Assembly: GCA_017995875.1 (NCBI GenBank)
Contig: JAGOIB010000001.1
Coordinates: forward strand, 1-32,814
DNA length: 32,814 nucleotides
Reading direction: 5' to 3'
DNA from: Saprospiraceae bacterium
GTDB taxonomy: Bacteria; Bacteroidota; Bacteroidia; Chitinophagales; Saprospiraceae
In this document: positions 2,970-19,083 of the stretch, one piece after another
How positions within the stretch are numbered: position 1 is the stretch's first letter
Layout: every line of letters begins with the position of its first letter
Position numbers and translations under genes: made by a program
Notes under the pieces: generated by a model
Told to the model about the DNA's origin: nothing
The model's input: only the letters and a program-made list of their open reading frames with translations
Database searches by the model: none

Positions 2970-3014
2970 TAGCAAATTTAAACCAATGCAGACAGGTTAA
3001 ATCTTGTATCTAAT

Positions 3015-3022
3015 TATTTTTG
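3015..3022 (+). promoter_or_regulatory. Candidate -7 box for the act-cox operon
   Basis: TATTTTTG matches TAnnTTTG exactly and is followed by GCAGCAG. It lies 41 bases before the chosen actA ATG. No TTG was found at the usual -33 distance, so support is limited to the -7 element and its position ahead of the operon. Confidence 0.4.
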
Positions 3023-3063
3023 CAGCAGAATCAGCTATTATAGTAAAGTCCACATCCATTGTT

Positions 3064-4473
3064 ATGCATCATAACTTATTGAAATACTGTATAGTACTTG
3101 CACTTAACTCTCTATTATTTGTAGGTAGCACTTTTGCCGCTCCAACGGCCGAGGCAGGAAAGACACTCTTTCAAAACCAGTGTGCCAGTTGCCATAACAA
3201 AAACATGAAGGACAACCTAACAGGTCCTGCATTGGGTGGAGTAGAGGAAAGATGGGCGGCTTATCCTAAAGAGGATCTTTACAATTGGATCCGCAATTCA
3301 CAATCTCTTATAGCAGCCGGTCATCCAAGAGCGACAGAACTGTGGGGAAAATACAAGCCGACTGTAATGAATTCTTTTCCGGCTTTCACAGATGAAGACA
3401 TTGCTTCTATACTTCTTTTTGTTGACGCCCAGTTTAACAAAGTACCTGCTGCCGCAGTAGCCGCACAACCTGGTGGTGGGACAACTGAACCATCTAAACC
3501 AGGTAAATACATTTATTTCCTCTTATTCGCCATTCTGGCTGTCGTCGTTTATGTTTTATCAAGGGTGCTTCATAACCTCCGTCATCTTGTGGCAAAGGAA
3601 GAAGGCATTACCCTTCCGCCACAAAAAACCATTTTCCAGACACTCACCAGCAAGACCGTCATTGGATTTCTTGTTTTTGCCCTTGTTGTGCTTGGAGGTT
3701 ATACCACGGTCAACAATGGTGTCTCTTTTGGCCGTCAGCAAGGATATGCCCCCGAACAACCAATTAAGTTTTCTCATGCAACCCACGCCGGTATCCAGGG
3801 CATTGATTGCCAATATTGCCATGATAGTGCCCGGCGGAGTAAACATGCTTCTATTCCTGGTTCCAATACCTGTATGAATTGCCATAAAGCCATTGAAAAG
3901 GGCAGTGTATATGGTACACAGGAATTGACTAAAATATTTGCTTCCATAGGTTATGATCCATCCACCGACAAGTACATTGAGAATTACGACAAGCTAACCA
4001 ATGATGAAATCAAGGCGATCTATACAAAATGGATAGGGGATAATTATATGAAGGATAAGGAAGCAACTGCCCTTGACAGGAAAGGTGAGCGGACGGTTGA
4101 AGAGCAATGGACTGAAATTTCTTCCTCACTGACGAATGAATTGAAAGAAAATATCGCCGGTCCTATTGAATGGACCCGTATTCATATGTTACCTGACCAT
4201 GTATATTTCAATCACTCCCAACACGTCAATATCGGTAAAATAGCTTGTCAGCAATGTCATGGTAAGGTCCAGGAAATGGATGTCTTATACCAATATGCTC
4301 CTCTTTCAATGGGATGGTGTATCAATTGTCACAGACAAACAGAAGTACAATTTACCGGCAATGATTATTACAATACCTACAAGCAATATCATGATGCTAT
4401 TGCTAAAGGCCAGCGTACAAAGGTGACAGTTGAGGATATCGGGGGGTTGGAATGCCAGAAATGCCATTATTAA
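3064..4473 (+). CDS. actA: Alternative complex III subunit ActA, six-heme cytochrome c
   Basis: ActA is the multiheme electron-transfer subunit of alternative complex III, which oxidises menaquinol and passes electrons to a cytochrome oxidase. The 469-residue protein starts at the ATG at 3064, giving a signal peptide ending near TFAAP; an upstream in-frame TTG at 3004 was rejected. There are six CxxCH sites: 40-44 in an N-terminal monoheme class I-like domain, then 249-253, 270-274, 395-399, 419-423 and 464-468. The last is followed by a single Tyr and the stop. Two hydrophobic segments, near residues 147-168 and 195-215, separate the first heme domain from the five-heme part, which carries CxxCH/His pairs of the cytochrome c3/c7 type. 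It is the first gene of the operon, 51 bases before actB. Confidence 0.93.
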   Translation: MHHNLLKYCIVLALNSLLFVGSTFAAPTAEAGKTLFQNQCASCHNKNMKDNLTGPALGGVEERWAAYPKEDLYNWIRNSQSLIAAGHPRATELWGKYKPTVMNSFPAFTDEDIASILLFVDAQFNKVPAAAVAAQPGGGTTEPSKPGKYIYFLLFAILAVVVYVLSRVLHNLRHLVAKEEGITLPPQKTIFQTLTSKTVIGFLVFALVVLGGYTTVNNGVSFGRQQGYAPEQPIKFSHATHAGIQGIDCQYCHDSARRSKHASIPGSNTCMNCHKAIEKGSVYGTQELTKIFASIGYDPSTDKYIENYDKLTNDEIKAIYTKWIGDNYMKDKEATALDRKGERTVEEQWTEISSSLTNELKENIAGPIEWTRIHMLPDHVYFNHSQHVNIGKIACQQCHGKVQEMDVLYQYAPLSMGWCINCHRQTEVQFTGNDYYNTYKQYHDAIAKGQRTKVTVEDIGGLECQKCHY

Positions 4474-4524: not shown

Positions 4525-7500
4525 ATGAAGGATCATACACCATACAATGATATTTGGATTGGATCAGAGGACCTGGCTCGCGATGAAAAATTTATTGACC
4601 AGGCTTCCCGTGAAATGCCTGATGCTTCTGTGGCCTCCATGCTTGCGCAAGGTGCTTCATTTGCTTCTGCAAACACAGGTCGTCGTGATTTTCTGAAATA
4701 CCTTGGCTTTAGTGTAACAGCTGCAACCGTAGCAGCTAGCTGTGAGATTCCTCTCAAACGCGCTATCCCCTATGTCACCAAACCGGATGATATGGTTCCT
4801 GGTGTGGCAAATTATTATGCTACCTCATTTGTACAGAGCGGTGATTACTGTAGCGTCCTTGTTAAAACAAGAGAAGGCCGTCCTATAAAGGTAGAAGGAA
4901 ATCAACTTTCACCGATCAACGGTGGGGGAACATCTGCAAGAGCACAGGCTTCTGTCCTTGGTATGTATGACACCAACAGGCTCCGCTCACCTCAATTGAA
5001 GAATGCTGAAGGCCATTTTGAAGCAGCTACCTGGCAACAGATAGATGATTTGATGGCATCTTCACTGAAACCTGAAAGCAAGATTGCTATTCTTTCTCAT
5101 AGTATGTTGAGTCCCACAGAAAAGCAAGTCGTAAAAGATTTTCAAACTAAATATCCAAACACAACTGTAACTATATACGATCCGGTTTCATCAGCGGCTA
5201 TTCTTCGTGCTAATGAATTGATGTACGGAGTATCGATGGTTCCTGGGTATCATTTTGATAAAGCAAAAGTTATTGTTGGCGTTCAGGCAGATTTTCTTGG
5301 TACATGGATTTCACCTGTTCAGTTTGCCCATAAGTATGCTGCAGGCCGCAAGATTACAGATACGGCTGCACCAAAGATGTCAAGGCATATCCAGATTGAA
5401 AGTTACATGTCATTGACAGGTACCAATGCAGATAATCGTATCCGCATCAAACCAAGTGAAACAGGTGCGGTACTTACCAGACTTTATAATAAGATTGCTG
5501 CTGCCAAAGGTGGGTCAGCTATACAAGGACCTTCCTTGAACGAGACATTGACAGAAGCGGTGGATAAGACAGCTGATGAAATGCTCAAATTTCCAGGTGA
5601 AAGCTTATTGGTTTGTGGTACGAATAATATTGCAGAACAATCTCTTGTTTGCGCCATCAATCACCTGCTGGGTAATGAAGGCAAGACCGTTGACCTGGAA
5701 AATTATTCTTTGCAACGCCAGGGTGATGAAAGTAAAGTAGCTGCATTGATGACCGCCATGACCAGTGGCCAGGTAGATGCATTGATTGTCTATGGCGCCA
5801 ATCCGGTATATGAACTCCCTTTTGGTGCTGCATTTGGTGATGCTATTAGCAAAATTGCTTTAACGGTCAGCACCTCCATTGACCTTGATGAAACTTCTTC
5901 ACTTTGCAAAATGGTAGCCCCTACCAATCATTTTCTGGAATCATGGGGTGATGCAGAAGCTGTTCGCGGGCACATCAGTATGATTCAGCCTACCATTTCT
6001 CCATTATTCAGTACACGTCAGCGTGAAGTGAGCTTGCTCAAATGGATTGGAGGCGACAACCTTATATTTAGCAGCGATCAGCCTTACTATGAATATCTGA
6101 AAGCAAGATGGGCCACTCAGACCGGCTCAGTTGCTTCCTGGAATGAGTTGCTTCATGATGGAGTATTCTCTTATACTACGACTCCTTCAGGTGCATCCTA
6201 CAGGGATAACGTTTCCTCTGTTGCCGGAAAACTTACACAACCAGGCACCGGATCTGAAATCACCTTTATGGAAACGGTGGCTATAGGAGCTGGTCAAAAT
6301 GCCAACAATCCATGGCTCCAGGAGATGCCGGATCCTGTGACCAGATGTGCATGGGGTAACTACCTTGCACTACCTGTTCAATTTGATGGGACCAGGAGAT
6401 TTATAGCCCATGAAAATCTTGAAGATGGAGATCTGGCAGACGTCAAAGTTGGGGAGGTTACCATAAGAGTTCCGGTTATCAAACAATTTGGCCAGACACC
6501 TGATTCATTCGCTCTTGCCTTAGGGTATGGACGTACTGTTACAGGGCGTGCCGGAATGGGTGTTGGAGTCAATGTTACTCCATGGCTTAAAACCGATGCA
6601 GATGGACTCATCCAGTATTATAGTAGCGGTGTAACTGTTTCATCCAAGAAGGGCGAAGAAGACTATTTCTCTTGTGTTCAGTACCACCATACAATGGGGG
6701 TTACGGGAGAAGACAGTAAGACAAAAGAAGTGATCAATGCTGATGAAGCAGCATTGGTATATATGACATACGGTCTCGTGAGACAAGGGTATCAGGGTGC
6801 ATTAGTTAATAGAACTATCATTCGTAAGAGCCATCTTGATCACGTTGAAGAGTTTATCAAGGATCTTCAGGAAGAACGCCATGAACATCAGGCGCTCAAT
6901 ACCAAGCAGGTTTACCCTGGTCACGATGCAACATATGCAAGAGGCCACCATTGGGGTATGCACGTTGATCTTAATGCTTGCATTGGCTGCGGTGCTTGTA
7001 CGGTCGCCTGTATGGCTGAAAACAACGTACCTGTTGTTGGTAAACGGGAAATGAGCCGTCACCATGAAATGGCATGGTTGAGGATCGACCGTTACTTCTA
7101 TGGTGATGTTGATAATCCAAGCGCAGTATATCAGCCTTTGATGTGTCAGCATTGTAACAATGCACCATGCGAAAACGTGTGCCCTGTCAATGCTACCAAC
7201 CATAGTTCAGAAGGCCTTAATCAAATGGCGTATAACCGTTGTGTAGGTACAAGGTATTGTGCCAACAACTGTCCTTATAAAGTGCGCAGGTTTAACTGGC
7301 TGGATTACAATGCTGCAGATTTATGGCCAATCAATGAAGCAGATCTCGGATTGAAATCTGGCTCAGATGATGTACCATATGGCGCAGACAACCTGACGAG
7401 GATGGTATTGAATCCGGATGTTACAGTAAGGTCACGTGGTGTCATTGAGAAATGTAGCTTCTGTGTACAACGTATTCAGGAAGGTAAGTTGAGAGCGAAG

Positions 7501-7722
7501 ACTGAAGCACGATTGCTTAGAGATGCTGATGTAAAAACTGCTTGCCAGACTGCCTGCCCAACAGGTGCCATCACTTTTGGGGATATGAATAATGAGGAAG
7601 GTGAATTGAGCAAGAAGTTGAAATCACCACTCAATTATATAGTACTGGAAGAAGTCAATACAAGGTCTGCTGTCAACTATCAGGCCAGGGTAAATAATAA
7701 AGCAGAAGGCGTTGACGCCTGA
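4525..7722 (+). CDS. actB: Alternative complex III subunit ActB, iron-sulfur protein
   Basis: ActB is the large periplasmic subunit, homologous to a molybdopterin oxidoreductase catalytic chain fused to an Fe-S chain. The 1065-residue length fits the fusion. A Tat-like motif RRDFLK at 53-58 precedes a hydrophobic stretch and a possible lipobox ending at Cys73 (AAS-C). Residues about 100-750 form the catalytic-like part, which in characterised ACIII holds no Mo cofactor. The C-terminal part carries ferredoxin-type cysteine groups for Fe-S clusters: CIGCGACTVAC from 819, CQHCNNAPCENVC from 874, CVGTRYCANNCP from 906, CSFC from 977 and CQTACPTGA from 1007. It lies between actA and actC. It was not called polysulfide or nitrate reductase, because the six-gene act order is complete. 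Confidence 0.95.
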   Translation: MKDHTPYNDIWIGSEDLARDEKFIDQASREMPDASVASMLAQGASFASANTGRRDFLKYLGFSVTAATVAASCEIPLKRAIPYVTKPDDMVPGVANYYATSFVQSGDYCSVLVKTREGRPIKVEGNQLSPINGGGTSARAQASVLGMYDTNRLRSPQLKNAEGHFEAATWQQIDDLMASSLKPESKIAILSHSMLSPTEKQVVKDFQTKYPNTTVTIYDPVSSAAILRANELMYGVSMVPGYHFDKAKVIVGVQADFLGTWISPVQFAHKYAAGRKITDTAAPKMSRHIQIESYMSLTGTNADNRIRIKPSETGAVLTRLYNKIAAAKGGSAIQGPSLNETLTEAVDKTADEMLKFPGESLLVCGTNNIAEQSLVCAINHLLGNEGKTVDLENYSLQRQGDESKVAALMTAMTSGQVDALIVYGANPVYELPFGAAFGDAISKIALTVSTSIDLDETSSLCKMVAPTNHFLESWGDAEAVRGHISMIQPTISPLFSTRQREVSLLKWIGGDNLIFSSDQPYYEYLKARWATQTGSVASWNELLHDGVFSYTTTPSGASYRDNVSSVAGKLTQPGTGSEITFMETVAIGAGQNANNPWLQEMPDPVTRCAWGNYLALPVQFDGTRRFIAHENLEDGDLADVKVGEVTIRVPVIKQFGQTPDSFALALGYGRTVTGRAGMGVGVNVTPWLKTDADGLIQYYSSGVTVSSKKGEEDYFSCVQYHHTMGVTGEDSKTKEVINADEAALVYMTYGLVRQGYQGALVNRTIIRKSHLDHVEEFIKDLQEERHEHQALNTKQVYPGHDATYARGHHWGMHVDLNACIGCGACTVACMAENNVPVVGKREMSRHHEMAWLRIDRYFYGDVDNPSAVYQPLMCQHCNNAPCENVCPVNATNHSSEGLNQMAYNRCVGTRYCANNCPYKVRRFNWLDYNAADLWPINEADLGLKSGSDDVPYGADNLTRMVLNPDVTVRSRGVIEKCSFCVQRIQEGKLRAKTEARLLRDADVKTACQTACPTGAITFGDMNNEEGELSKKLKSPLNYIVLEEVNTRSAVNYQARVNNKAEGVDA

Positions 7723-7774: not shown

Positions 7775-9229
7775 ATGGGTTCAGGACCTACATCACCGAT
7801 CAGAGAACCGTTAATACGGGGACATAAGACCTACCACCAGATTACGGAGGATCTATGTTCACCTACAGAAAAAGCGCCAAACAGGGCATGGACGATTGCA
7901 TTTATAACTGCATTGAGTGCCTTGACCTTTGGAGTGATCTGTATTATTATCACCATCTGGGTAGGAATTGGCACCTGGAGGCTAAACAGAACGATCGGGT
8001 GGGGTTGGGACATTACCAATTTCGTTTGGTGGATCGGTATTGGTCACGCAGGAACGCTTATCTCCGCAATCCTTCTGCTCTTCCGTCAGAAATGGCGTAC
8101 TGGTGTAAACCGCGCAGCAGAAGCTATGACCATCTTTGCTGTAATCTGTGCGGCATTGTTTCCAATGATACACGTAGGTAGGATTTGGGTTGTGTTTTAC
8201 TTTTTCCCTTATCCGAACACAAGAGGTCCGATATGGCCAAATTTTAATTCACCTTTGCTCTGGGACCTATTTGCGATCTCCACCTATTTTACGGTGTCTC
8301 TTCTATTCTGGTATACCGGTCTTGTACCTGACTTTGCAACTGTAAGGGACAGGGCAAAAGGATTCAGGAAGAAAATGTATACATTCCTCGCTTTCGGTTG
8401 GACTGGTGCAGCAAAGCATTGGCAACGTCACGAATCGCTTTCACTTGTACTGGCAGGATTAGCGACACCACTTGTATTGTCTGTTCATACAATAGTAAGT
8501 TTTGACTTTGCCACATCTGTAATCCCAGGGTGGCATACCACGATTTTTCCTCCTTACTTTGTTGCCGGAGCTATCTTCTCAGGTTTTGCCATGGTGCAAA
8601 CCCTTATGATCATCACACGAAAGGTCCTGAATCTGCAGGAGTATATTACAATAGCCCATATTGAGTCGATGAATAAAGTTATCCTGGTGACAGGAACCAT
8701 CGTCGGGGTTGCTTATCTGACAGAGTTGTTTATTGCCTGGTATTCCGGTTATGTGTACGAACAATTTGCATTTTTCAACAGGGCATTAGGCCCATACTGG
8801 TGGTCTTACTTTGGTATGATGACCTGTAATGTTGTTTCACCACAATTGTTCTGGTCTAAGAAGCTAAGGAGAAATGTCACGATGACATTCTTCATGTCCA
8901 TCTTCGTTAATATCGGAATGTGGTTTGAACGTTTCGTCATTATCGCTACGACCTTAGCACGAGATTATCTGCCATCCAGCTGGAGTTTTTATGTTCCATC
9001 AATCGTTGAGATCGGCATTTATGTGGGTACCCTTGGAATTTTCTCAACGTTCTATTTGATTTTTGTTCGTATTGCCCCTGTTGTCGCAATAGCAGAAATC
9101 AAACATATTCTGAAGAGTTCAGGAGACCAGTATGTTACTTCAAATGCTAAAACAACTTTCCAGCAGATTGAAAGCGGCACACTCGAATTGCAAGTTGAAG
9201 GCCATGGCAGTGATCATGGACACCATTAA
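7775..9229 (+). CDS. actC: Alternative complex III subunit ActC, NrfD-like quinol-binding membrane protein
   Basis: ActC is one of two NrfD/PsrC-type integral membrane subunits and is thought to hold the quinol site. The 484-residue sequence shows about ten hydrophobic helices, beginning after the hydrophilic N-terminus GHKTYHQITEDLCSP. NrfD-type features include GWGWDITNFVWWIGIGHAG, a histidine in FPMIHVGRIWV, and the loop around LVLSVHTIVSFDFA with WHTTIFPPYFVAGA. The tail is His-rich (GHGSDHGHH). It begins 52 bases after actB and is followed after 41 bases by actD. Confidence 0.94.
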   Translation: MGSGPTSPIREPLIRGHKTYHQITEDLCSPTEKAPNRAWTIAFITALSALTFGVICIIITIWVGIGTWRLNRTIGWGWDITNFVWWIGIGHAGTLISAILLLFRQKWRTGVNRAAEAMTIFAVICAALFPMIHVGRIWVVFYFFPYPNTRGPIWPNFNSPLLWDLFAISTYFTVSLLFWYTGLVPDFATVRDRAKGFRKKMYTFLAFGWTGAAKHWQRHESLSLVLAGLATPLVLSVHTIVSFDFATSVIPGWHTTIFPPYFVAGAIFSGFAMVQTLMIITRKVLNLQEYITIAHIESMNKVILVTGTIVGVAYLTELFIAWYSGYVYEQFAFFNRALGPYWWSYFGMMTCNVVSPQLFWSKKLRRNVTMTFFMSIFVNIGMWFERFVIIATTLARDYLPSSWSFYVPSIVEIGIYVGTLGIFSTFYLIFVRIAPVVAIAEIKHILKSSGDQYVTSNAKTTFQQIESGTLELQVEGHGSDHGHH

Positions 9230-9270: not shown

Positions 9271-9801
9271 ATGAAGCACGGTGAAAAAAATATAATATTC
9301 GGTTTGTACGATGATGAGGAAGATCTCAAGTCTGCCGTAAGGAAGGCCAATGAAGATCATCTTCAGATCATGGATGTGTTAACACCATTTCCTGTACATG
9401 GATTAGATCCTTTATTAGGCCTGGCAGAATCCAGGATTCATATTGGAGGATTCGTATACGGTATGCTGGGAACCCTCACAGCCTTTTTAGGAATGACCTG
9501 GATATTTACCCGGGACTGGCCTCAGATATATGGTGGGAAGCCTTATTGGCCGATTCTTTCCTTTGTACCCATCACGTTTGAGTTGACTGTATTGTTTGCT
9601 TCTATCGGAATGGTCGTAACATTTTATATCATCAATGGACAAGGTCCTGGTATTGTCAACCCAATCATTCATCCAGGCATCACAGATGATAAGTTTTGCA
9701 TCGCTTTCAATACGGACGACATGGGAAGCACGCAAGTCGACAAGTACAGGCAATTTTTCCAAAACACCGGAGCAAGTCTGGTAGAAACGAAGACTATCTG
9801 A
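9271..9801 (+). CDS. actD: Alternative complex III subunit ActD (DUF3341)
   Basis: This 176-residue protein has the DUF3341 layout. An N-terminal cytoplasmic ferredoxin-like domain opens with IIFGLYDDEEDLKSAVRKA and includes the typical DVLTPFPVHGLD. Two membrane helices follow (about residues 57-75 and 92-118), with the conserved GGKPYWPILSFVPITFEL between and within them. The soluble tail FCIAFNTDDM is also typical. ActD has no cofactor and stabilises the membrane part of ACIII. Its stop lies 2 bases before the actE start, so translation of the two is probably coupled. Confidence 0.93.
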   Translation: MKHGEKNIIFGLYDDEEDLKSAVRKANEDHLQIMDVLTPFPVHGLDPLLGLAESRIHIGGFVYGMLGTLTAFLGMTWIFTRDWPQIYGGKPYWPILSFVPITFELTVLFASIGMVVTFYIINGQGPGIVNPIIHPGITDDKFCIAFNTDDMGSTQVDKYRQFFQNTGASLVETKTI

Positions 9802-10715: not shown

Positions 10716-11960
10716 ATGAATCAGTTTATATTCGAAACAAGACAAAAGACATTGCTAGGCGCGATGATGCTGATTGGTGTCATTTCGTTGGTGATCACCT
10801 ACATGGGAGATGACCAGGTACATACCCGGTTCTGGTCCAATATCCTTCATAATTCCGTTTTCTTCACAGGAGTAGCGCTGATGGCCCTCTTCCTCATTGC
10901 TGCCAAGATTACAGCATGGTCAGGCTGGCACACCATCTTCAAGAGGGTGTGGGAAGCGTATTCCCTTTTCCTCATTGTAGGATTTGTGTTGATCACGATC
11001 ATAGCGATGGGCATTTGGGGCGGATGGCATCACCTGTATCATTGGGCAGATGAAGCATCTGTTAAAGCTGATGCAGTATTGACCGGAAAAAGTTCATTTT
11101 TGAATAAAGGCTGGTATACGTTTGGTGGCATTATTATAATGGGCTTGTGGATTTTTCTTGCCCTTCGCATCCGCGGTCTTTCCGTTGATGAGGATACAAA
11201 TGGTGATTCAACTTTTACCCACGCTCGTAAGATGAGAATTTATGGGGCTGCTGCATTACCGATAATCGGTTTCACCAGTGCTGCAATGATATGGCAATGG
11301 GTGATGTCTGTAGATGCACATTGGTACAGCACACTTTTTGCTTGGTACGCTTCTGCCAGTTTAATGGTGTCCATGATCGCACTCACGATCATCACCCTGA
11401 TCATCCTGAAGATAAGAGGATATTTTCCATTGGTGACTATTGAGCACTTACATGATTTGGGCAAATACATGTTTGCTTTCACGATATTCTGGACCTATCT
11501 GTGGTTCTCACAGTTCATGCTGATATGGTACGCTAACATTCCTGAAGAAACAATTTACTTCAACACCCGTCTGCATGAATATCCGGTGATGTTTTATTTG
11601 AACATAGGACTCAATTTTGCACTGCCATTCTTAGTGCTTCTGCGCAATGATACAAAGCGTAAATACGGAACATTGTTATTTATCGCCTGTGTTCTCGTTT
11701 TTACCCATTGGATGGATTTCTTTTTGATGCTTAAACCTGGTATCATCCATACGGCGCATGAGTTATCAAATGTGGGTGGTGAAGGGCATCATGTGGGTGG
11801 ATCAATACCAGGATTTACCATGCCTGGGTTTTTGGAAATTGGAACATTTATAGGATTCCTGGGATTATTTTTCTTTTTCGTTTTCAGCCGTCTTGAAAAA
11901 GCCAGCCTTGTTCCGAGAAAGGATCCTTATCTCATGGAAAGTTTGTCTCATCACACATAG
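10716..11960 (+). CDS. actF: Alternative complex III subunit ActF, NrfD-like membrane protein
   Basis: ActF is the second polytopic quinone-type membrane subunit of ACIII, a relative of ActC with about ten helices in 414 residues. Visible features are WGGWHHLYHWADE, a cytoplasmic turn LRIRGLSVDEDTNGD, the helix pair around MSVDAHWYSTLFAWYASAS, YMFAFTIFWTYLWFSQFML, and VLVFTHWMDFFLMLKPG. All are typical of the act-linked family. It closes the six-gene act block and is followed 55 bases later by coxB, matching the ACIII-oxidase supercomplex arrangement known in Bacteroidota. Confidence 0.93.
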   Translation: MNQFIFETRQKTLLGAMMLIGVISLVITYMGDDQVHTRFWSNILHNSVFFTGVALMALFLIAAKITAWSGWHTIFKRVWEAYSLFLIVGFVLITIIAMGIWGGWHHLYHWADEASVKADAVLTGKSSFLNKGWYTFGGIIIMGLWIFLALRIRGLSVDEDTNGDSTFTHARKMRIYGAAALPIIGFTSAAMIWQWVMSVDAHWYSTLFAWYASASLMVSMIALTIITLIILKIRGYFPLVTIEHLHDLGKYMFAFTIFWTYLWFSQFMLIWYANIPEETIYFNTRLHEYPVMFYLNIGLNFALPFLVLLRNDTKRKYGTLLFIACVLVFTHWMDFFLMLKPGIIHTAHELSNVGGEGHHVGGSIPGFTMPGFLEIGTFIGFLGLFFFFVFSRLEKASLVPRKDPYLMESLSHHT

Positions 11961-12015: not shown

Positions 12016-13533
12016 ATGACCGCTTTCATTATTGGATTAAGTATACTGCTTTTGGTGATCGTTATTTTGCAGATCAGCAAGTTGACAGATTTATACGCCC
12101 GCATCCGCGGAGAGGAAGAAGTAGAAGAACGTATGAATCGGGGGCAAGGCATGGCCATGCTTCTCTTTATGATTGGCCTGCTTGTTCTTTGCGTTTTATC
12201 TGCGTATTGGTGGAAAAACCTTATGCTGGGCTATGGCCCTCATAAGGGTGCCTCAGCGCATGGAGACACACTTGACAGTTTATTCAATGTGACGTTGTTG
12301 TTTACAGGAATTGTATTTGTGATCACCCATATTGGATTATTCTATTTCGCATGGCGTTACAAGAAAGTAAAGGGGTCTAAAGGAACACACGTATCTCATA
12401 ATAATACCCTTGAGATAGTTTGGTCGGCTATCCCTGCTGTGGTCATGACGTATCTCGTGATCAAAGGACTTCTGGCATGGAACACTGTAATGGCAGATGT
12501 GCATGAAGGAGATGAGCACATGGAAATTGAAGCTACAGGATATCAGTTTGCATGGCACCTCCGGTATCCGGGCGCTGATGGTGTATTGGGTTCCAGAGAT
12601 TACAAGAAAATAACTGCGGACAATCCTTTAGGTCAGGATTGGACAGATCCACACAATTTTGATGACTTTCATCCGGATGAATTATGGTTGCCTGTCAATA
12701 AAAAAGTCAGAGTCCGCATCACAGCAAGAGATGTACTACACAGTTTCTTCCTCCCACACTTTAGGGTGAAAATGGATGCTGTTCCCGGACTGCCTACGTA
12801 TTTTGTTTTCACACCAACCAAGACCACTGAACAATACAGGGATGAACTTCGGAATTTTCCGGAGTACAACGTTCCAAAAGATCCATCGGATCCGGAAAGT
12901 AAAATGCTCTGGGAAGAATTTAATTATGAGCTTGCCTGTGCAGAGTTGTGTGGCCAGAGCCATTACAGTATGCGCCGCATAGTTCGTATTGTTACACAAG
13001 AAGAATATGATGCATGGTTGGCTAAGCAGCAATCCTATTACCAAAGCAGTATTCGTGGAAAAGATTCTGACCCAAACAAGGGGAAACTGCTTGATTTTGA
13101 AATAGGCCAGCATCGTGAAGCTCTTGGTATGGCTGTTGAAAAAGCCTTAGCCAATACAGGTATACCTCCGGCTGCCGGAGCACCTGACCTTAAAACCATT
13201 CGCCTTGAATACGTTGAGTTTGAAACAGGTGTGAATGCGCTAACTGCTGATTCAAAGTATCAGTTGAATGACCTTGCTGAAATTCTTAAGAAGTATCCGA
13301 ATCTTAGAATTGAAGTTAGCGGACATACAGATAATGTCGGAGATCCCGCAGCTAATCGTACACTTTCTCAGCAAAGGGCAGACGTAGTAAAAACGTACCT
13401 CGTTGCACAAGGCATAGGCGCGAATGTAATGACCGCAGTAGGGTATGGATCTACCAAACCTGTTGATACAAATGATACAGACGCGGGACGTCAGAAGAAC
13501 AGGAGAACAGAATTCAGAATAATAGCTCAATAA
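12016..13533 (+). CDS. coxB: Cytochrome c oxidase subunit II fused to an OmpA-type peptidoglycan-binding domain
   Basis: Subunit II receives electrons at the binuclear CuA centre. Of 505 residues, about 1-330 are a normal subunit II. Hydrophobic helices lie near 1-19, 46-65, 92-112 and 133-150, the first being extra to the usual two. A cupredoxin domain follows with His242 (DVLHSFFLPHF) and the CuA set Cys308, Cys312, His316, Met319 (CAELCGQSHYSM). A linker of about 65 residues, Pro/Ala-rich at its end, leads to an OmpA C-like domain at about 395-505. This domain has VEFETG, SGHTDNVGD (Asp439), LSQQRADVVKTYL, GYGSTKP and NRRTE (Arg496/497), the residues that bind diaminopimelate in this family. 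The fusion is in one open frame. Both cupredoxin and OmpA parts would face the periplasm. There is no heme c domain. Confidence 0.95.
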   Translation: MTAFIIGLSILLLVIVILQISKLTDLYARIRGEEEVEERMNRGQGMAMLLFMIGLLVLCVLSAYWWKNLMLGYGPHKGASAHGDTLDSLFNVTLLFTGIVFVITHIGLFYFAWRYKKVKGSKGTHVSHNNTLEIVWSAIPAVVMTYLVIKGLLAWNTVMADVHEGDEHMEIEATGYQFAWHLRYPGADGVLGSRDYKKITADNPLGQDWTDPHNFDDFHPDELWLPVNKKVRVRITARDVLHSFFLPHFRVKMDAVPGLPTYFVFTPTKTTEQYRDELRNFPEYNVPKDPSDPESKMLWEEFNYELACAELCGQSHYSMRRIVRIVTQEEYDAWLAKQQSYYQSSIRGKDSDPNKGKLLDFEIGQHREALGMAVEKALANTGIPPAAGAPDLKTIRLEYVEFETGVNALTADSKYQLNDLAEILKKYPNLRIEVSGHTDNVGDPAANRTLSQQRADVVKTYLVAQGIGANVMTAVGYGSTKPVDTNDTDAGRQKNRRTEFRIIAQ

Positions 13534-13546
13534 ACTATAAACGACT

Positions 13547-15406
13547 ATGTCATCTTCACAGCAGCATGAAACCGATGTTCTGATCCGTGAGCAGGGTTAT
13601 GACGATCATTTTCATGAACATCATCATGGAGATAAATTCCAATCGAATTTTATCACCCATTATATATTCAGCCAGGATCACAAGATCATAGCCAGGCAAT
13701 TCCTTATTACCGGGATTTTCTGGGCTATCGTCGGTGCAAGCATGAGTATCATATTCAGGCTTCAGCTTGGCTTTCCTGATGAAAGTCTGGCATGGTTAAA
13801 GCCTTTATTGGGAAAATGGATTACCATCAATGAAGCTGGTCATGGAGCGCTCAATCCTGAGTTCTACTATGCTCTTGTGACCATGCACGGAACGATCATT
13901 GTATTCTTTGTATTGACTGCAGGGTTGAGTGGAACGTTTGCCAACTTGTTGATACCATTTCAGGTAGGTGCCAGGGATATGGCATCACCGTTTCTAAATA
14001 TGCTATCCTACTGGTTCTTTTTCCTGGCCAGTGTCGTGATGTTCTTTTCTTTATTTCTCAGCACAGGCCCGTTTGCCGGTGGATGGACAGCATACCCTCC
14101 ATTGAGCGCCTTGCCTGAAGCAAGTTCAGGATCCGGTGCAGGAATGACATTATGGTTAGTCAGTCTTACATTCTTTGTAGTTTCAGTTCTTCTCGGAGGT
14201 ATCAACTATGTAACGACTGTCCTTAATTTAAGAACAAAAGGCATGAGCCTGTGGCGTATGCCACTTACAGTGTGGGCACTTCTCGTTACAGCTATTCTTG
14301 GAATCTTATCCTTCCCTGTACTTGTGTCAGGATTTTTCCTGCTCATGTTTGACAGGGGGATGGGTACCAGTTTTTATCTCAGTGAAATTTTTGTCAATGG
14401 GCACGCACTTGAAAATGTAGGTGGTAGTCCAATCTTATATCAGCATTTGTTCTGGTTCCTCGGTCACCCTGAAGTGTATATCATTATACTTCCTGCTATG
14501 GGTCTTACCAGTGAAGTATTATCGGTGAATGCAAGGAAGCCTATATTTGGATACAAGGCAATGGTTTATTCGATTTTAGCCATTGGTTTTCTTTCCTTCA
14601 TAGTGTGGGCACACCACATGTTTATGTCCGGGGTCAATCCGTTTATCACCAATTTCTTTGTGATTTTCACACTCATCATTGCGGTACCTTCTGCTGTTAA
14701 AGTATTTAACTGGATCTCGACTCTTTATAAAGGAAATATCCGGTTTACATCCGGAATGCTATTCGCTATCGGATTTGTGTCAATGTTTATTTCCGGAGGA
14801 CTTACTGGGATATTCCTTGGTAATTCTGCCATCGATATTCAATTGCATGATACGTATTTCGTTGTTGCACACTTCCATATTGTGATGGGTATTGCTGCCT
14901 TCTTTGGAATGTTTGCAGGTGTCTATCATTGGTTCCCACGGATGTACGGCCGTTTTATGAATGAGACCATGGGCAGGATCCATTTCTGGATGACGATGGT
15001 GGGTGCATATGCTATTTTCTGGCCTATGCATTATATGGGAATGGCTGGAGTTCCAAGGCGCTATTATCGTTTTGATACGTTTGATGCATTCAATCATTTT
15101 GCAGGACTCAATCAGTTCATTACTATTGCGGCTATTATTGTATTTGGTGCCCAACTCCTGTTTGTTTTCAACTTCTTCCACAGTATCTGGTGGGGTAGAA
15201 AGATGACAACCCAGAATCCCTGGGGCTCGAATACATTGGAATGGACATCCCCGATTGAACCGGTCCATGGTAACTGGCCTGGTAATTTACCGACAGTTCA
15301 CAGATGGGCATATGATTATAGCAAGGAAGGTGCTGAAAAGGATTTCATCCAGCAGCACATGCCAATGACTGAAAAGGAAAAAGAGGAAGGCGAAGACCAC
15401 GGATGA
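13547..15406 (+). CDS. coxA: Cytochrome c oxidase subunit I, A-type
   Basis: This is the catalytic heme-copper subunit that reduces O2 and pumps protons. The 619-residue protein has all key residues: heme a ligands His114 and His444, high-spin heme ligand His442 (VVAHFHIVMG), CuB ligands His307, His356 and His357, and the cross-link Tyr311 in GHPEVYI. Glu309 in that motif, Asp144 (GARDMASPFLNM, D-channel entry with Asn) and Lys385 (AVKVFNW, K-channel) mark it as A1-type with both proton channels. The N-terminus is a long His-rich cytoplasmic stretch (HFHEHHHGD). It starts 13 bases after coxB, and its stop overlaps the ctaB start by 4 bases. Confidence 0.97.
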   Translation: MSSSQQHETDVLIREQGYDDHFHEHHHGDKFQSNFITHYIFSQDHKIIARQFLITGIFWAIVGASMSIIFRLQLGFPDESLAWLKPLLGKWITINEAGHGALNPEFYYALVTMHGTIIVFFVLTAGLSGTFANLLIPFQVGARDMASPFLNMLSYWFFFLASVVMFFSLFLSTGPFAGGWTAYPPLSALPEASSGSGAGMTLWLVSLTFFVVSVLLGGINYVTTVLNLRTKGMSLWRMPLTVWALLVTAILGILSFPVLVSGFFLLMFDRGMGTSFYLSEIFVNGHALENVGGSPILYQHLFWFLGHPEVYIIILPAMGLTSEVLSVNARKPIFGYKAMVYSILAIGFLSFIVWAHHMFMSGVNPFITNFFVIFTLIIAVPSAVKVFNWISTLYKGNIRFTSGMLFAIGFVSMFISGGLTGIFLGNSAIDIQLHDTYFVVAHFHIVMGIAAFFGMFAGVYHWFPRMYGRFMNETMGRIHFWMTMVGAYAIFWPMHYMGMAGVPRRYYRFDTFDAFNHFAGLNQFITIAAIIVFGAQLLFVFNFFHSIWWGRKMTTQNPWGSNTLEWTSPIEPVHGNWPGNLPTVHRWAYDYSKEGAEKDFIQQHMPMTEKEKEEGEDHG

Positions 15407-16302
15407 AAGGGAAAGGAGACGTACAAATAAGGACAGCCTCGATTACATTCGGGGACTGGCTTCAGGATGTTGAGCTTCTGGTGAAGTTCAGGTTGAGTAC
15501 GTTTGTGGTATTCTCATCACTCGTTGCCTATGTCATAGCAGCAGGGCAAAACTTTCATTTGACTTCATTTCTGTTGTTGACAATTGGAGGTTTTCTCATC
15601 ACTTTCGCTGCCAACATTCTAAATGAGATATTGGAAGCAGATTATGATCGCATGATGCAGCGGACTTCCAACCGACCATTAGCAGCAGGGAGATGGTCGT
15701 CATCTTCTGCGTTAGTATTGGCTGGTTTTACATCCCTGGTGGGTATTACTTTGTTAGCCCTGTTAAATCCATTGACCTCATTTCTGGGTACATTATCGCT
15801 GGTCACATATGCCTTTTTGTACACGCCACTCAAGCGATATAGTCCTGTTGCCGTTATTGTAGGAGCTATCCCGGGAGCATTGCCGGTCATGATTGGCATG
15901 ATAGCCCATGATGGCGTTATTACTCCAGCCGCGTTATTTCTATTTGCCATTCAATTTGTCTGGCAGTTTCCACACTTCTGGGCCATTGGTTTTTTATCCT
16001 ATGACCAATATAGAAATGCTGGATATAAATTGCTGCCCGAAGAGAATGGACGTATAGACAGGAGACTTGGAGCACAGACTTTTATTTATACGTGCCTGAT
16101 GATACCGGTAATCCTTATTGGTTTTATGATCGGATTGATATCATTGGTTGGCGCCATTGGAATGGTGCTATTGTCTTCTTTCTTTCTTTGGAAAGCATGG
16201 ATATTTTACAATCAGTTTGATAAGGCAAGTGCACGTGCATTGATGTTTTCTTCATTTCTCTACCTTCCTGCCGCACTTATGGTGTTGTGGATAGGAATGT
16301 AA
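15403..16302 (+). CDS. ctaB: Protoheme IX farnesyltransferase (heme O synthase)
   Basis: CtaB attaches a farnesyl group to heme b, giving heme O, the precursor of the heme A in subunit I. The 299-residue UbiA-superfamily protein shows the first Asp-rich prenyl-diphosphate motif NEILEADYDRMMQRTSNRPL near residue 75, and the second region SYDQYRNAGYKLLPEENG near 200. It has about nine hydrophobic helices. The ATG overlaps the coxA stop as ATGA, implying coupled translation. No heme A synthase (ctaA) gene is seen in this window. Confidence 0.95.
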   Translation: MKGKGDVQIRTASITFGDWLQDVELLVKFRLSTFVVFSSLVAYVIAAGQNFHLTSFLLLTIGGFLITFAANILNEILEADYDRMMQRTSNRPLAAGRWSSSSALVLAGFTSLVGITLLALLNPLTSFLGTLSLVTYAFLYTPLKRYSPVAVIVGAIPGALPVMIGMIAHDGVITPAALFLFAIQFVWQFPHFWAIGFLSYDQYRNAGYKLLPEENGRIDRRLGAQTFIYTCLMIPVILIGFMIGLISLVGAIGMVLLSSFFLWKAWIFYNQFDKASARALMFSSFLYLPAALMVLWIGM

Positions 16303-16318
16303 CTTATAGTAAACGATC

Positions 16319-16906
16319 GTGAATACAAGTATAGACAGCGGAAGCATACAAACAAAGGCAAGACGGGGAATTCATCCTCCACTCTTTGCTTTGTGGGCTG
16401 CTATGGGCAGTATGGCGATGATGTTTGGTTCACTGACCAGTGCTTATATTGTAAGACAATCAGCAGGTAACTGGCTCGAATTCCGGATGCCGGATATTTT
16501 CTTTTACAGTACGATTGTCATCCTGTTGAGCAGTGCCACACTCCATGTTAGTTATTGGGCTTTTCAAAATGGAAAGGGGACGCTGTATAAATTGTTTTTA
16601 CCAGCAAGCCTGATGCTTGGTATTGCCTTTATCGTCATGCAGTACCAGGGCTGGAATGCCTTATATAACATAGGTGTAGTCCTCGATGGAAACCCCGGAG
16701 GTTCATTCTTCTATGTTATTTCCGGTATTCACGCAGCCCACGTCATTGGAGGACTTTTTGCGATGGCAGTGGCTTCAATCCATGCTATAAGCCTTACCTA
16801 TAAACCAACCGAAAAAAGAAAAAGGAGATTTCAGCTGGTGCTGCATTACTGGCATTTTGTTGATTTCCTTTGGTTATATCTTTTTCTATTTCTATTGATC
16901 AAATGA
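16319..16906 (+). CDS. Cytochrome c oxidase subunit III-like protein (short paralogue)
   Basis: This 195-residue protein with five hydrophobic helices belongs to the heme-copper oxidase subunit III family. Visible markers are PPLFALWAAMGSMAMMFGSLTSAYIVRQ, the SGIHAAHVIGGLF helix, and the C-terminal LHYWHFVDFLWLYLFLFL. The start is a GTG at 16319, because the next in-frame Met would remove the conserved N-terminal region. It lies 16 bases after ctaB and 15 before the longer subunit III gene. Paired subunit III genes are usual in Bacteroidota act-cox clusters; which one contacts subunit I in the assembled enzyme cannot be read here. Confidence 0.9.
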   Translation: MNTSIDSGSIQTKARRGIHPPLFALWAAMGSMAMMFGSLTSAYIVRQSAGNWLEFRMPDIFFYSTIVILLSSATLHVSYWAFQNGKGTLYKLFLPASLMLGIAFIVMQYQGWNALYNIGVVLDGNPGGSFFYVISGIHAAHVIGGLFAMAVASIHAISLTYKPTEKRKRRFQLVLHYWHFVDFLWLYLFLFLLIK

Positions 16907-16921
16907 TTTACATCTAAATAA

Positions 16922-17971
16922 ATGGCTACAGATACCTTAGACAAGAAACATACGGACCACGACAGCACAGAAAACGCAAGTTGGGATGGCGCGGAATATC
17001 CGTTTAAAGTAGGCTATGGCAAATTGATGATCTGGTATTTTCTGGTATCAGATGCATTCACCTTCGCCGGATTTCTGATCGCCTATGGTACACTCCGATT
17101 TAGTATGCCTAGCTGGCCGGTGCCTGATTTTGTTTTCAGCACTTTCCCCTTTCTGGGTCCTGGTCATCCGTTACTTTTTGTGACGTTTATGACCTTTGTC
17201 CTTCTCTTCAGTTCCTTTACGATGATCAGGGCTGTACAAGAAGGACATCGTGAAAATCGCAGAGGAGTTGCCATTTGGATGGGCTTAACCATTATTGGAG
17301 GTCTTGGCTTTTTAGGTTGCCAGGCCTGGGAGTGGACGACCTTGATAGGCGAGGAGCATATGAGCGTAACTACGAATCCGTTTGGAACACACACTGAAGC
17401 AGGTATTTACCTGGGCCCCGATGGAAAGGAATCTTCTGAAACCTTTCATGTAGGCTCAACCTACTTAATTCACAAAGCAAGTTTTGAATCAGAGCATCAT
17501 GACGCATCTGGTGGCGAAGCAGCTGGCCATGGTGAAACGGTAGCCCAAAGCGAAGGTGCTACCCATGAGGAATCCGCACAACATAGCGAGGCAGACGCTA
17601 CACACAGTGAAGCAGCAGGTCATGGCGGTCATTCATACGCAGGTCCTGGTGACTATCCGGACGCTGTAGTTGATGAGAGGGGGTATATCCATCGTAAATT
17701 TATTGTCTCGGAAGGAGAGCATGCAGGCCATACAAAGTCTGAAGCTTTTGGTCCGAAAGCATTTGGTGCTTTATTTTTCTTCATTACAGGGTTCCACGGA
17801 TTTCACGTTTTCTCGGGAGTGATTTTCCTGACCATCATACTAGTCAATGTCCTTAGCGGAATATATGTTGCCCGCCGCAATGGAAATGAAATGGTAGAAA
17901 AAATAGGATTATACTGGCACTTTGTGGATCTCGTATGGGTTTTTGTATTCCTTGTATTCTATCTGCTTTAA
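16922..17971 (+). CDS. coxC: Cytochrome c oxidase subunit III with His-rich insertion
   Basis: This 349-residue subunit III is longer than the usual 200-260. The N-terminal half has helices around YFLVSDAFTFAGFLIAYG, HPLLFVTFMTFVLLFSSFTMI and LTIIGGLGFLGCQAWEWTTLI. The C-terminal half has FFFITGFHGFHVFSGVIFL and the family ending IGLYWHFVDLVWVFVFLVFYLL. Between them, about residues 145-275, lies a long hydrophilic loop. Its core (189-240) is low-complexity Ala, Glu, Gly, Ser and His, with eight His in about fifty residues. The gene lies inside the cox operon, 54 bases before the subunit IV gene. Assignment to subunit III is firm; the job of the loop is unknown. Confidence 0.94.
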   Translation: MATDTLDKKHTDHDSTENASWDGAEYPFKVGYGKLMIWYFLVSDAFTFAGFLIAYGTLRFSMPSWPVPDFVFSTFPFLGPGHPLLFVTFMTFVLLFSSFTMIRAVQEGHRENRRGVAIWMGLTIIGGLGFLGCQAWEWTTLIGEEHMSVTTNPFGTHTEAGIYLGPDGKESSETFHVGSTYLIHKASFESEHHDASGGEAAGHGETVAQSEGATHEESAQHSEADATHSEAAGHGGHSYAGPGDYPDAVVDERGYIHRKFIVSEGEHAGHTKSEAFGPKAFGALFFFITGFHGFHVFSGVIFLTIILVNVLSGIYVARRNGNEMVEKIGLYWHFVDLVWVFVFLVFYLL

Positions 17972-18025: not shown

Positions 18026-18385
18026 ATGGCACACGATTATACAGGAGCAAAGAAAATCGCACTCAAAACGATTATTATATTGGCTGTAGTTACAGTGATA
18101 GAAGTACTGATTGCCTTGACCGGCAAAGGGTATATCATCGACGGATACCATGCCCCTAAATTGGTCATGAATTCCCTTATGATCGGTATGAGTTTATACA
18201 AAGCATATCTCATTGTTTTCGAGTTTATGCACATGAAGTACGAAGCAAGAGGACTGATGTTGAGTGTTCTGCTTCCGGTATGCCTTTTGTTCTGGGCTAT
18301 CATTGCTTTCCTCTATGAAGGAAATGCATGGAAAAATAATCGCCATACCGTTCAGGAACGTTCCAAAGTCGAAGTTTTAAAATAG
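18026..18385 (+). CDS. coxD: Cytochrome c oxidase subunit IV-like small membrane protein
   Basis: This 119-residue protein has three hydrophobic helices (about 12-30, 45-65 and 75-95) and the pattern of prokaryotic oxidase subunit IV. It has a short cytoplasmic N-terminus, a first helix with VVTVIEVLIAL, the loop KAYLIVFEFMHMKYE, and a last helix LLPVCLLFWAIIAFLYEG. It is a structural accessory subunit without cofactors. It is the last core oxidase gene, 54 bases after subunit III and 116 bases before the SCO-like gene. Confidence 0.88.
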   Translation: MAHDYTGAKKIALKTIIILAVVTVIEVLIALTGKGYIIDGYHAPKLVMNSLMIGMSLYKAYLIVFEFMHMKYEARGLMLSVLLPVCLLFWAIIAFLYEGNAWKNNRHTVQERSKVEVLK

Positions 18386-18501: not shown

Positions 18502-19083
18502 ATGTCAAGGAAGTTTTTAGTCACCATCATTCTTATTCTGTTCCTGCTTCCATTCGTGTCATGGTATTACCTCCAGTCAGGACTCAACTGGCGTAAGGCT
18601 GCCCAGGAAGTCATGCATGGGACAACACCCTTTCCTGCTGTTAAGTACGACAACGGCAACGGCCTTAAATTTTCCAATGAGTTACTCGAAGAACATGTTT
18701 CTATAGTTTGTTTTATTCCCTGCAACAATGGAGATGATCAAATGAATGTGCTTGATGAACTCTACGAGCAATTTAAGGAAACCAATAAGGCTAATTTTAT
18801 TTTACTGGATTCGTGTCAAACAGATGCATCAGGAGCAGGAGATGTGGTGAAAAAGAATTGGTACAGAATACCTTGTTCGGATTCACTTGCCCTCTGTGCA
18901 TCCTTATTGAATGAATGGCCAAAGGGAAAAACATTTGCCCTTGTCGACAGAAACAAAGTCATCAGAAGCTATTATGGGATAGCAACCAAAGATGAAAAGA
19001 GAATATTGGTAGAACACATGGCATTATTACTTCCACGAGAACGCCAGGAAAAAGTAGAGCTTAAAAGAGGGGATAAGAAGTGA
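18502..19083 (+). CDS. SCO1/SenC-like thioredoxin-fold protein lacking the canonical copper ligands
   Basis: SCO proteins deliver copper to the CuA site of subunit II. This 193-residue protein has an N-terminal membrane anchor (residues 5-24) and an SCO-like fold ending TFALVDRNKVIRSYYGIATKDEKRILVEHMALL. In the position of the CxxxC copper motif it reads FIPCNNGDDQM. Cys74 aligns with the first ligand, but Asp78 replaces the second. An extra Cys70 gives a shifted CxxxC (70-74). The usual His before the LVD strand is also missing (WPKGKTFALVD). It may act as a thiol reductase or bind copper differently. Its stop overlaps the next gene's GTG start as GTGA. Family assignment is moderately sure. 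Confidence 0.7.
   Translation: MSRKFLVTIILILFLLPFVSWYYLQSGLNWRKAAQEVMHGTTPFPAVKYDNGNGLKFSNELLEEHVSIVCFIPCNNGDDQMNVLDELYEQFKETNKANFILLDSCQTDASGAGDVVKKNWYRIPCSDSLALCASLLNEWPKGKTFALVDRNKVIRSYYGIATKDEKRILVEHMALLLPRERQEKVELKRGDKK

Follow-up and report, generated by a model that had tools for sequence, protein, structure and literature searches.

An OmpA-like domain fused to cytochrome c oxidase subunit II as a putative peptidoglycan tether for the ACIII-aa3 supercomplex in Saprospiraceae

The usual picture of respiratory complexes is one of mobility within the membrane. OmpA-like domains (PF00691) are carried on a linker from a membrane complex to the cell wall in MotB, TssL, and TolR-Pal, and the anchors of this kind belong to force-bearing machines or are outer-membrane lipoproteins. 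Among respiratory systems, the ACIII-aa3 supercomplex of Flavobacterium johnsoniae and the ACIII-caa3 supercomplex of Rhodothermus marinus have homologous subunits of alternative complex III (ACIII) next to an aa3-type oxidase, as at the locus described here. In a low-resolution map of the latter, subunit II of the oxidase has its periplasmic domain next to the ACIII cytochromes, and ActE, a lipobox protein that extends to the membrane surface, lies beside subunit II and is favorably placed for direct electron transfer to it (available portions of PMC5928083). The same portions, and those available for F. johnsoniae (PMC8552683), make no mention of an OmpA domain in either supercomplex; "ompA" in PMC8552683 refers to a promoter. 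The act genes of F. johnsoniae, a laboratory strain, are open to genetic manipulation (PMC8552683).

The window analyzed here, the whole stretch of 32,814 nucleotides, contains an ACIII-oxidase operon with all of the genes given below on the forward strand. Upstream of the gene of interest, actA (3004-4473), actB (4525-7722), actC (7775-9229), and actE (open reading frame from 9696, likely start 9804, end 10688) were assigned from Pfam domains, and actD (9271-9801) by name (PF11821); actF (10716-11960) had no Pfam match and was named from its position and its relatives in other operons. Downstream, coxA (13547-15406) begins 13 bases after the coxB-ompA stop codon and is followed by ctaB (15403-16302), two COX3-family genes (16319-16906 and 16922-17971), and a COX4_pro gene (18026-18385), so that the genes for subunits I and III neighbor coxB-ompA, as they do other genes for heme-copper oxidase subunit II. 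ActA has a Cytochrom_C match (residues 49-140) beside its multiheme part, a feature similar to the additional cytochrome c domain that the available text of PMC5928083 reports in ActA of F. johnsoniae. A gene beyond cox4 (18502-19083) has no Pfam match, and weakly similar genes (~24-30% identity) occupy the same place in several relatives.

The coxB-ompA gene (12016-13533, forward strand) encodes 505 amino acids in one uninterrupted frame, arranged as an N-terminal membrane part (residues 1-155, 12016-12480, extent judged by eye), a periplasmic CuA domain (residues 170-345, 12523-13050), a linker of ~50 residues (residues 346-396, 13051-13203), and an OmpA-like domain (residues 397-505, 13204-13530). 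Pfam places COX2_TM at residues 77-147 and COX2 at 171-261, both over their gathering scores, and the OmpA domain (PF00691) at 402-496 (E = 6e-23, 81.5 bits versus a cut-off of 27.2, covering positions 2-98 of the 98 in the profile). The NCBIfam CoxB equivalog score was 141.4 bits, slightly below the cut-off of 147.7, and the NCBIfam MotB and TssL models also matched, every match lying below its cut-off. Six residues of the CuA domain, His242, Cys308, Glu310, Cys312, His316, and Met319, are the CuA ligands; all but Glu310 are invariant in alignments of 28 and 77 fused sequences (the window's included), and Glu310 is invariant in the alignment of 28. The linker has a median length of 48 residues across 248 fused homologues, and a CxxCH motif is absent from the window protein and from the C-terminal tails of the CoxB relatives that were read. 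The preliminary description of this DNA had proposed a complete CuA subunit II, a linker, and a full OmpA-like domain in one frame, with the C terminus of CoxB in the periplasm. The open frame, the Pfam matches, and the invariant ligands bear this out, as does the position of the tail after the CuA domain, and the break in the frame that the description had allowed for was not found, the frame being open also in homologues of the same architecture. By the features tested, the predicted protein is a genuine oxidase subunit II with a genuine PF00691 domain.

In A. baumannii OmpA, Asp271 and Arg286 were shown to bind diaminopimelate (DAP) (available portions of PMC6572160). Their equivalents by motif and spacing in the window protein are Asp439 (13330-13332, forward strand) and Arg454, within the motif LSQQRAD (13375-13377, forward strand), which are separated by 15 residues, as are Asp271 and Arg286. 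The aspartate had been recognized correctly in the preliminary description, which paired it with the arginine of NRRTE; because the two A. baumannii residues are 15 apart, like Asp439 and Arg454, the former arginine is not the matching one, and Arg454 is the true equivalent. Across the fused homologues, aspartate is found at the position of Asp439 in 240 of 247 and arginine at that of Arg454 in 247 of 248, with both present in 239 of 247; the pair is retained in 43 of the 44 CoxB-OmpA proteins read from genomes. The Asn495-Arg496-Arg497 motif (13498-13506, forward strand) is also conserved, with Asn495 and Arg497 each kept in 247 of 247 fused homologues.

A database check for COX2 plus OmpA homologues, as the preliminary description had proposed, returned them in plenty, with PF00116 and PF00691 both present in 120 of 120 best matches (the best 120 of 3434 above threshold, 8000 candidates having been scored). 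The same architecture was found on two MAG contigs from a separate collection (L001 and L002), in a scan whose single-sequence query reaches no further than close relatives. Databases list the close homologues as "cytochrome c oxidase subunit II / 2" or "OmpA family protein" and, where an organism is given, assign them to "Saprospiraceae bacterium". Together with the window, the proteins from three protein searches numbered 333, of which 248 were fused and 85 were COX2 only; this proportion is not a frequency, as fused sequences had served as queries.

Genomes of the order Chitinophagales were surveyed in two overlapping draws, of 198 and 396, in which a CoxB match was found in 181 and 376 genomes, respectively. 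At least 108 of the 396 genomes are fused, comprising 106 rows among those listed and two further genomes (G077 and G122) from their open reading frames. The 106 rows consist of 101 of Saprospiraceae type (of 134 listed) and five of a divergent second set, and they take in the decayed domains of G680 and G658; "Saprospiraceae-type" denotes CoxB rows better than ~1e-105, with the divergent second set excluded and the truncated G660 added. In G122, the search row ends short of the OmpA domain and the fusion was seen by direct reading of the frame; as matches may stop before the domain in this way, some fusions may hide in partial or unlisted rows. Within the order surveyed, the CoxB-OmpA fusion is present in most genomes of Saprospiraceae type. 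In a draw from the class (395 genomes, 263 with a CoxB match), the fused genomes among the rows listed numbered six, all already fused in the order searches, and in a draw from the phylum (138 genomes, 99 with any match, many of these to the OmpA domain alone) there were three fused CoxB rows, all from genomes of the order draws. Fifteen long CoxB frames (435-522 amino acids) read from other class-draw genomes (L091-L105) have their extra ~80-170 residues at the N terminus, and none of the 15 has an OmpA domain.

We consider it likely that the OmpA-like domain tethers the ACIII-aa3 supercomplex non-covalently to peptidoglycan. The oxidase would be synthesized and inserted in the usual way, the C terminus of subunit II would remain in the periplasm, and the ~50-residue linker would let the OmpA domain reach the wall, where Asp439 and Arg454 would clasp diaminopimelate; the whole quinol-to-oxygen module would then be held at one place relative to the wall. 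The extended CoxB linker, with its median of 48 residues, appears long enough to bridge the CuA domain to the wall. Wall binding, the reach of the linker, and an effect on mobility are what we infer, and such a tether could be attached to either of two adjacent periplasmic subunits, CoxB or ActE.

The ActE-borne form was found in genome G195, where CoxB has no OmpA domain and ActE, a lipid-anchored, single-heme cytochrome encoded two genes upstream of CoxB, ends in one (142 bits; 84.7 bits with Pfam). When this ActE was used as the query, 134 of the 396 order genomes matched at ≤1e-45 and 16 of the matches ran through the OmpA domain; all 16 operons were read, and CoxB is without the domain in 16 of 16. 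These 16 genomes do not represent 16 events, because the CoxB core is identical in G748 and G684, two near copies, and because a single origin, tested on 14 ActE-OmpA domains, was not rejected (p-AU 0.63). In the class draw, a full-length ActE-OmpA match was found in four of 395 genomes among the rows listed (G348, G378, G485, and G388), all in ACIII operons. The four are outside the order draws, with CoxB falling short of the 1e-40 level in the class search, and probably lie outside Chitinophagales; CoxB has no OmpA domain in G348 and G378 and was not seen in the stretch read in G485 and G388, the two genomes in which the ActE-OmpA domain is without the aspartate. Over the 20 ActE-OmpA proteins, both DAP residues are present in 18, CxxCH in all 20, and a simple lipobox pattern in 14.

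Wherever both genes were judged, no genome has the OmpA domain on both CoxB and ActE. Among the Saprospiraceae-type genomes, ActE-OmpA occurs in 0 of 100 with CoxB-OmpA versus 10 of 28 without (Fisher p = 5.8e-8, which ignores relatedness); G660, G756, and G650 were left out of the Fisher tests, as were, for this count, G161, which lacks an ActE row, and G718 and G708, whose ActE was not judged. In an independent-pairs test, between one and three pairs were informative; each of them pointed the expected way and, with a median p of 0.5, they were too few for significance. The mutual exclusion of the two fusions is therefore strong in raw counts and unproven after correcting for relatedness.

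As the same kind of domain sits on the neighboring ActE in other lineages, selection would seem to act on the anchoring of the supercomplex and not on any feature peculiar to subunit II. Whether borne by CoxB or by ActE, a C-terminal extension would emerge from a single periplasmic face of the supercomplex, and what the two fusions would share is supercomplex anchoring, not electron transfer. The R. marinus ACIII map also includes density for an unidentified periplasmic subunit above ActE (available portions of PMC5928083), which might be where an ActE-borne domain would sit or could be a separate periplasmic partner.

Two other roles for the domain were weighed against these data. It might serve assembly or stability from within the complex, packing on ACIII or on a periplasmic partner without binding peptidoglycan, and a minority of the proteins do keep the domain minus one DAP residue (eight of 247 fused homologues, and the ActE-OmpA proteins of G485 and G388). 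This role appears unlikely, as the DAP pair is kept in 239 of the 247, a linker-borne domain on two unrelated subunits fits a tether better than a specific interface, and several relatives manage without the domain altogether. Alternatively, the domain might span the periplasm and fix the distance between the inner and outer membranes, or tie the oxidase to an outer-membrane partner, as could be supposed from how common OmpA-like domains are on outer-membrane proteins. With both hosts, CoxB and ActE, being inner-membrane parts, we hold this to be very unlikely; in the operon stretches read, gene matching was confined to the genes of the window and the OmpA HMM.

On a tree of the CoxB core, from which the domain and tail were excluded (109 rows, namely 108 genomes and the window), CoxB-OmpA requires at least 17 changes of state and ActE-OmpA at least seven, counts that cannot separate gain from loss. 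Excluded before these counts were G037, G756, and G660, where CoxB reaches the contig end, and the outlier G004. On a slightly larger CoxB-core tree, for which G116 was too short, the well-supported branches alone force 10 and five changes, respectively. In the family of G122, which has a CoxB match in 12 of 13 genomes, G122 is the sole fused member (among the other 11, the match in G116 starts at residue 107), and of the other three genomes in the family of G023 two are unfused and one is interrupted by the contig end.

In a tree of the OmpA domains themselves, a supported group of 12 unites those of G122, G023, G057, and G186 with eight stand-alone OmpA paralogues. A single clade of all 43 CoxB-borne OmpA domains was rejected (p-AU 0.0024), as was a single clade of the Saprospiraceae-type domains with those of G122, G023, G057, and G186 (p-AU 0.022), the p values being somewhat optimistic as the groups were chosen after the first tree and the alignment has 111 columns. 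G680_CoxB, G658_CoxB, G189_p177, and G760_ActE were left out of the AU tests. We conclude that at least two independent fusions, perhaps three, took place on CoxB, from different OmpA paralogues. One ancient CoxB fusion followed only by losses was also considered; for the domain, the AU test rejects it, the groups having been picked post hoc. Two OmpA proteins encoded outside the operon, one (L123, G023:C17) 61% identical to the fused region of the G023 CoxB and the other (L136, G057:C6) 71% identical to the fused domain of G122, exemplify the type of paralogue that could have donated the domain.

The domain has apparently also been lost or has decayed several times. Weaker OmpA matches were obtained for G680 (L258, 63.1 bits), in which the aspartate and arginine are kept and the NRR motif is gone, and for G658 (L259, 87.3 bits), in which both the aspartate and the NRR motif are gone. 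The CoxB tails of G704, G633, and G603 (L240-L242) give no match to the OmpA HMM, with no Pfam match to the domain in G704 either, and are read as at most a decayed OmpA remnant. Across these five decaying tails, the ligand motifs have disappeared in part or entirely. In G193 and G189 the CoxB tails are acidic and proline-containing, and in these two genomes, as in G641, G742, G696, and G666, no matched operon gene in the stretches read carries an OmpA domain. The last four (L243-L246) have a Saprospiraceae-type CoxB with a long C-terminal tail of unknown kind; Pfam found no OmpA domain on CoxB or ActF of L243 and L246. As several Saprospiraceae-type operons are without the domain, the tether would be dispensable. 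A Pfam search for another anchoring domain in genomes lacking CoxB-OmpA found none in 10 proteins from seven loci, which include L259 (G658, with its decayed OmpA match) and L184 (G195, an ActE-OmpA genome), and ActF had no Pfam match in the five relatives' proteins scanned, as in the window.

Ratios of nonsynonymous to synonymous change were obtained for the OmpA domain in pairs of fused proteins. The dN/dS was 0.046-0.169 in seven of ten pairs, whose members keep the aspartate and arginine, although the values are rough, dS being above 1.2 in six of these pairs. For the decaying pair G680/G658 the ratio was 0.353, and the two remaining pairs gave none because dS was saturated. In 10 of 10 pairs dN of the OmpA domain was above that of the CuA core. 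Purifying selection on the OmpA domain is supported by these estimates. They also bear on neutral shuffling, in which abundant OmpA domains would land on envelope proteins by chance. Such domains are indeed abundant, with 7-29 matches to the window's OmpA domain at E ≤ 1e-10 in each of 12 genomes searched (the fused one counted where present), and the state changes on the tree are frequent (at least 17 for CoxB). Chance landing is nevertheless barely plausible beside dN/dS values of 0.05-0.17, near-invariant ligand residues, and repeated fusion in the same operon at two subunits. An assembly or frameshift artefact is ruled out by the homologues, of which 120 of the 120 listed share the architecture, and by its recurrence in numerous genomes that were assembled separately.

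Taken together, these results leave the wall anchoring of the ACIII-oxidase put forward in the preliminary description partly supported as an interpretation and strengthened by the swap to ActE: the fusion, the periplasmic C terminus, the DAP pair, purifying selection on the domain, its repeated origin, and its presence on ActE in some genomes whose CoxB is without it speak for it, and wall binding itself we infer. They suggest respiratory machinery that may be tethered rather than drifting in this bacterial group. The preliminary description was aware of no described function for such a fusion, and neither COX2-OmpA nor ActE-OmpA proteins were found described in the accessible parts of the open full-text literature. 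The fusion is new as a recognized system and not as a sequence, its architecture being already in public databases under generic names. If the tether reading is correct, it would account for proteins now named just "OmpA family protein" or "cytochrome c oxidase subunit II", and a wall clasp would have been placed more than once, on two adjacent subunits, which would open the importance of respiratory-chain position to direct test; among the relatives, genotypes with the domain, without it, and with it swapped occur naturally.

Of the known systems, the MotB-type OmpA-domain wall anchors of membrane machines are those that CoxB-OmpA would resemble in how it works, by analogy, with the difference that its host is an electron-transfer enzyme, unlike MotB, TssL, or TolR-Pal. 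Subunit IIc of caa3 oxidases resembles it in build, as it too is a subunit II extended by a further periplasmic domain at the C terminus. In caa3 that domain is a cytochrome c, whereas here it is an OmpA domain, and the C-terminal extension is free of CxxCH in the relatives read. A further parallel is PsaB of photosystem I from Gloeobacter violaceus (7f4v_aB, from PDB 7f4v), likewise a bioenergetic inner-membrane subunit with an OmpA-like C-terminal stretch (residues 754-864 of 872). Gloeobacter is without thylakoids and has its reaction centers in the inner membrane (available portions of PMC8227023), and the main text of the paper on the Gloeobacter structure (PMC9000952), searched by term, contains neither "peptidoglycan" nor "OmpA". 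PsaB differs in belonging to an unrelated complex and another phylum. On the whole, we lean slightly toward the broader view that wall-anchored respiration is recurrent and selected in Bacteroidota, with a clasp on CoxB or ActE, not both, holding respiratory patches, and that it is convergent with the PsaB of Gloeobacter.
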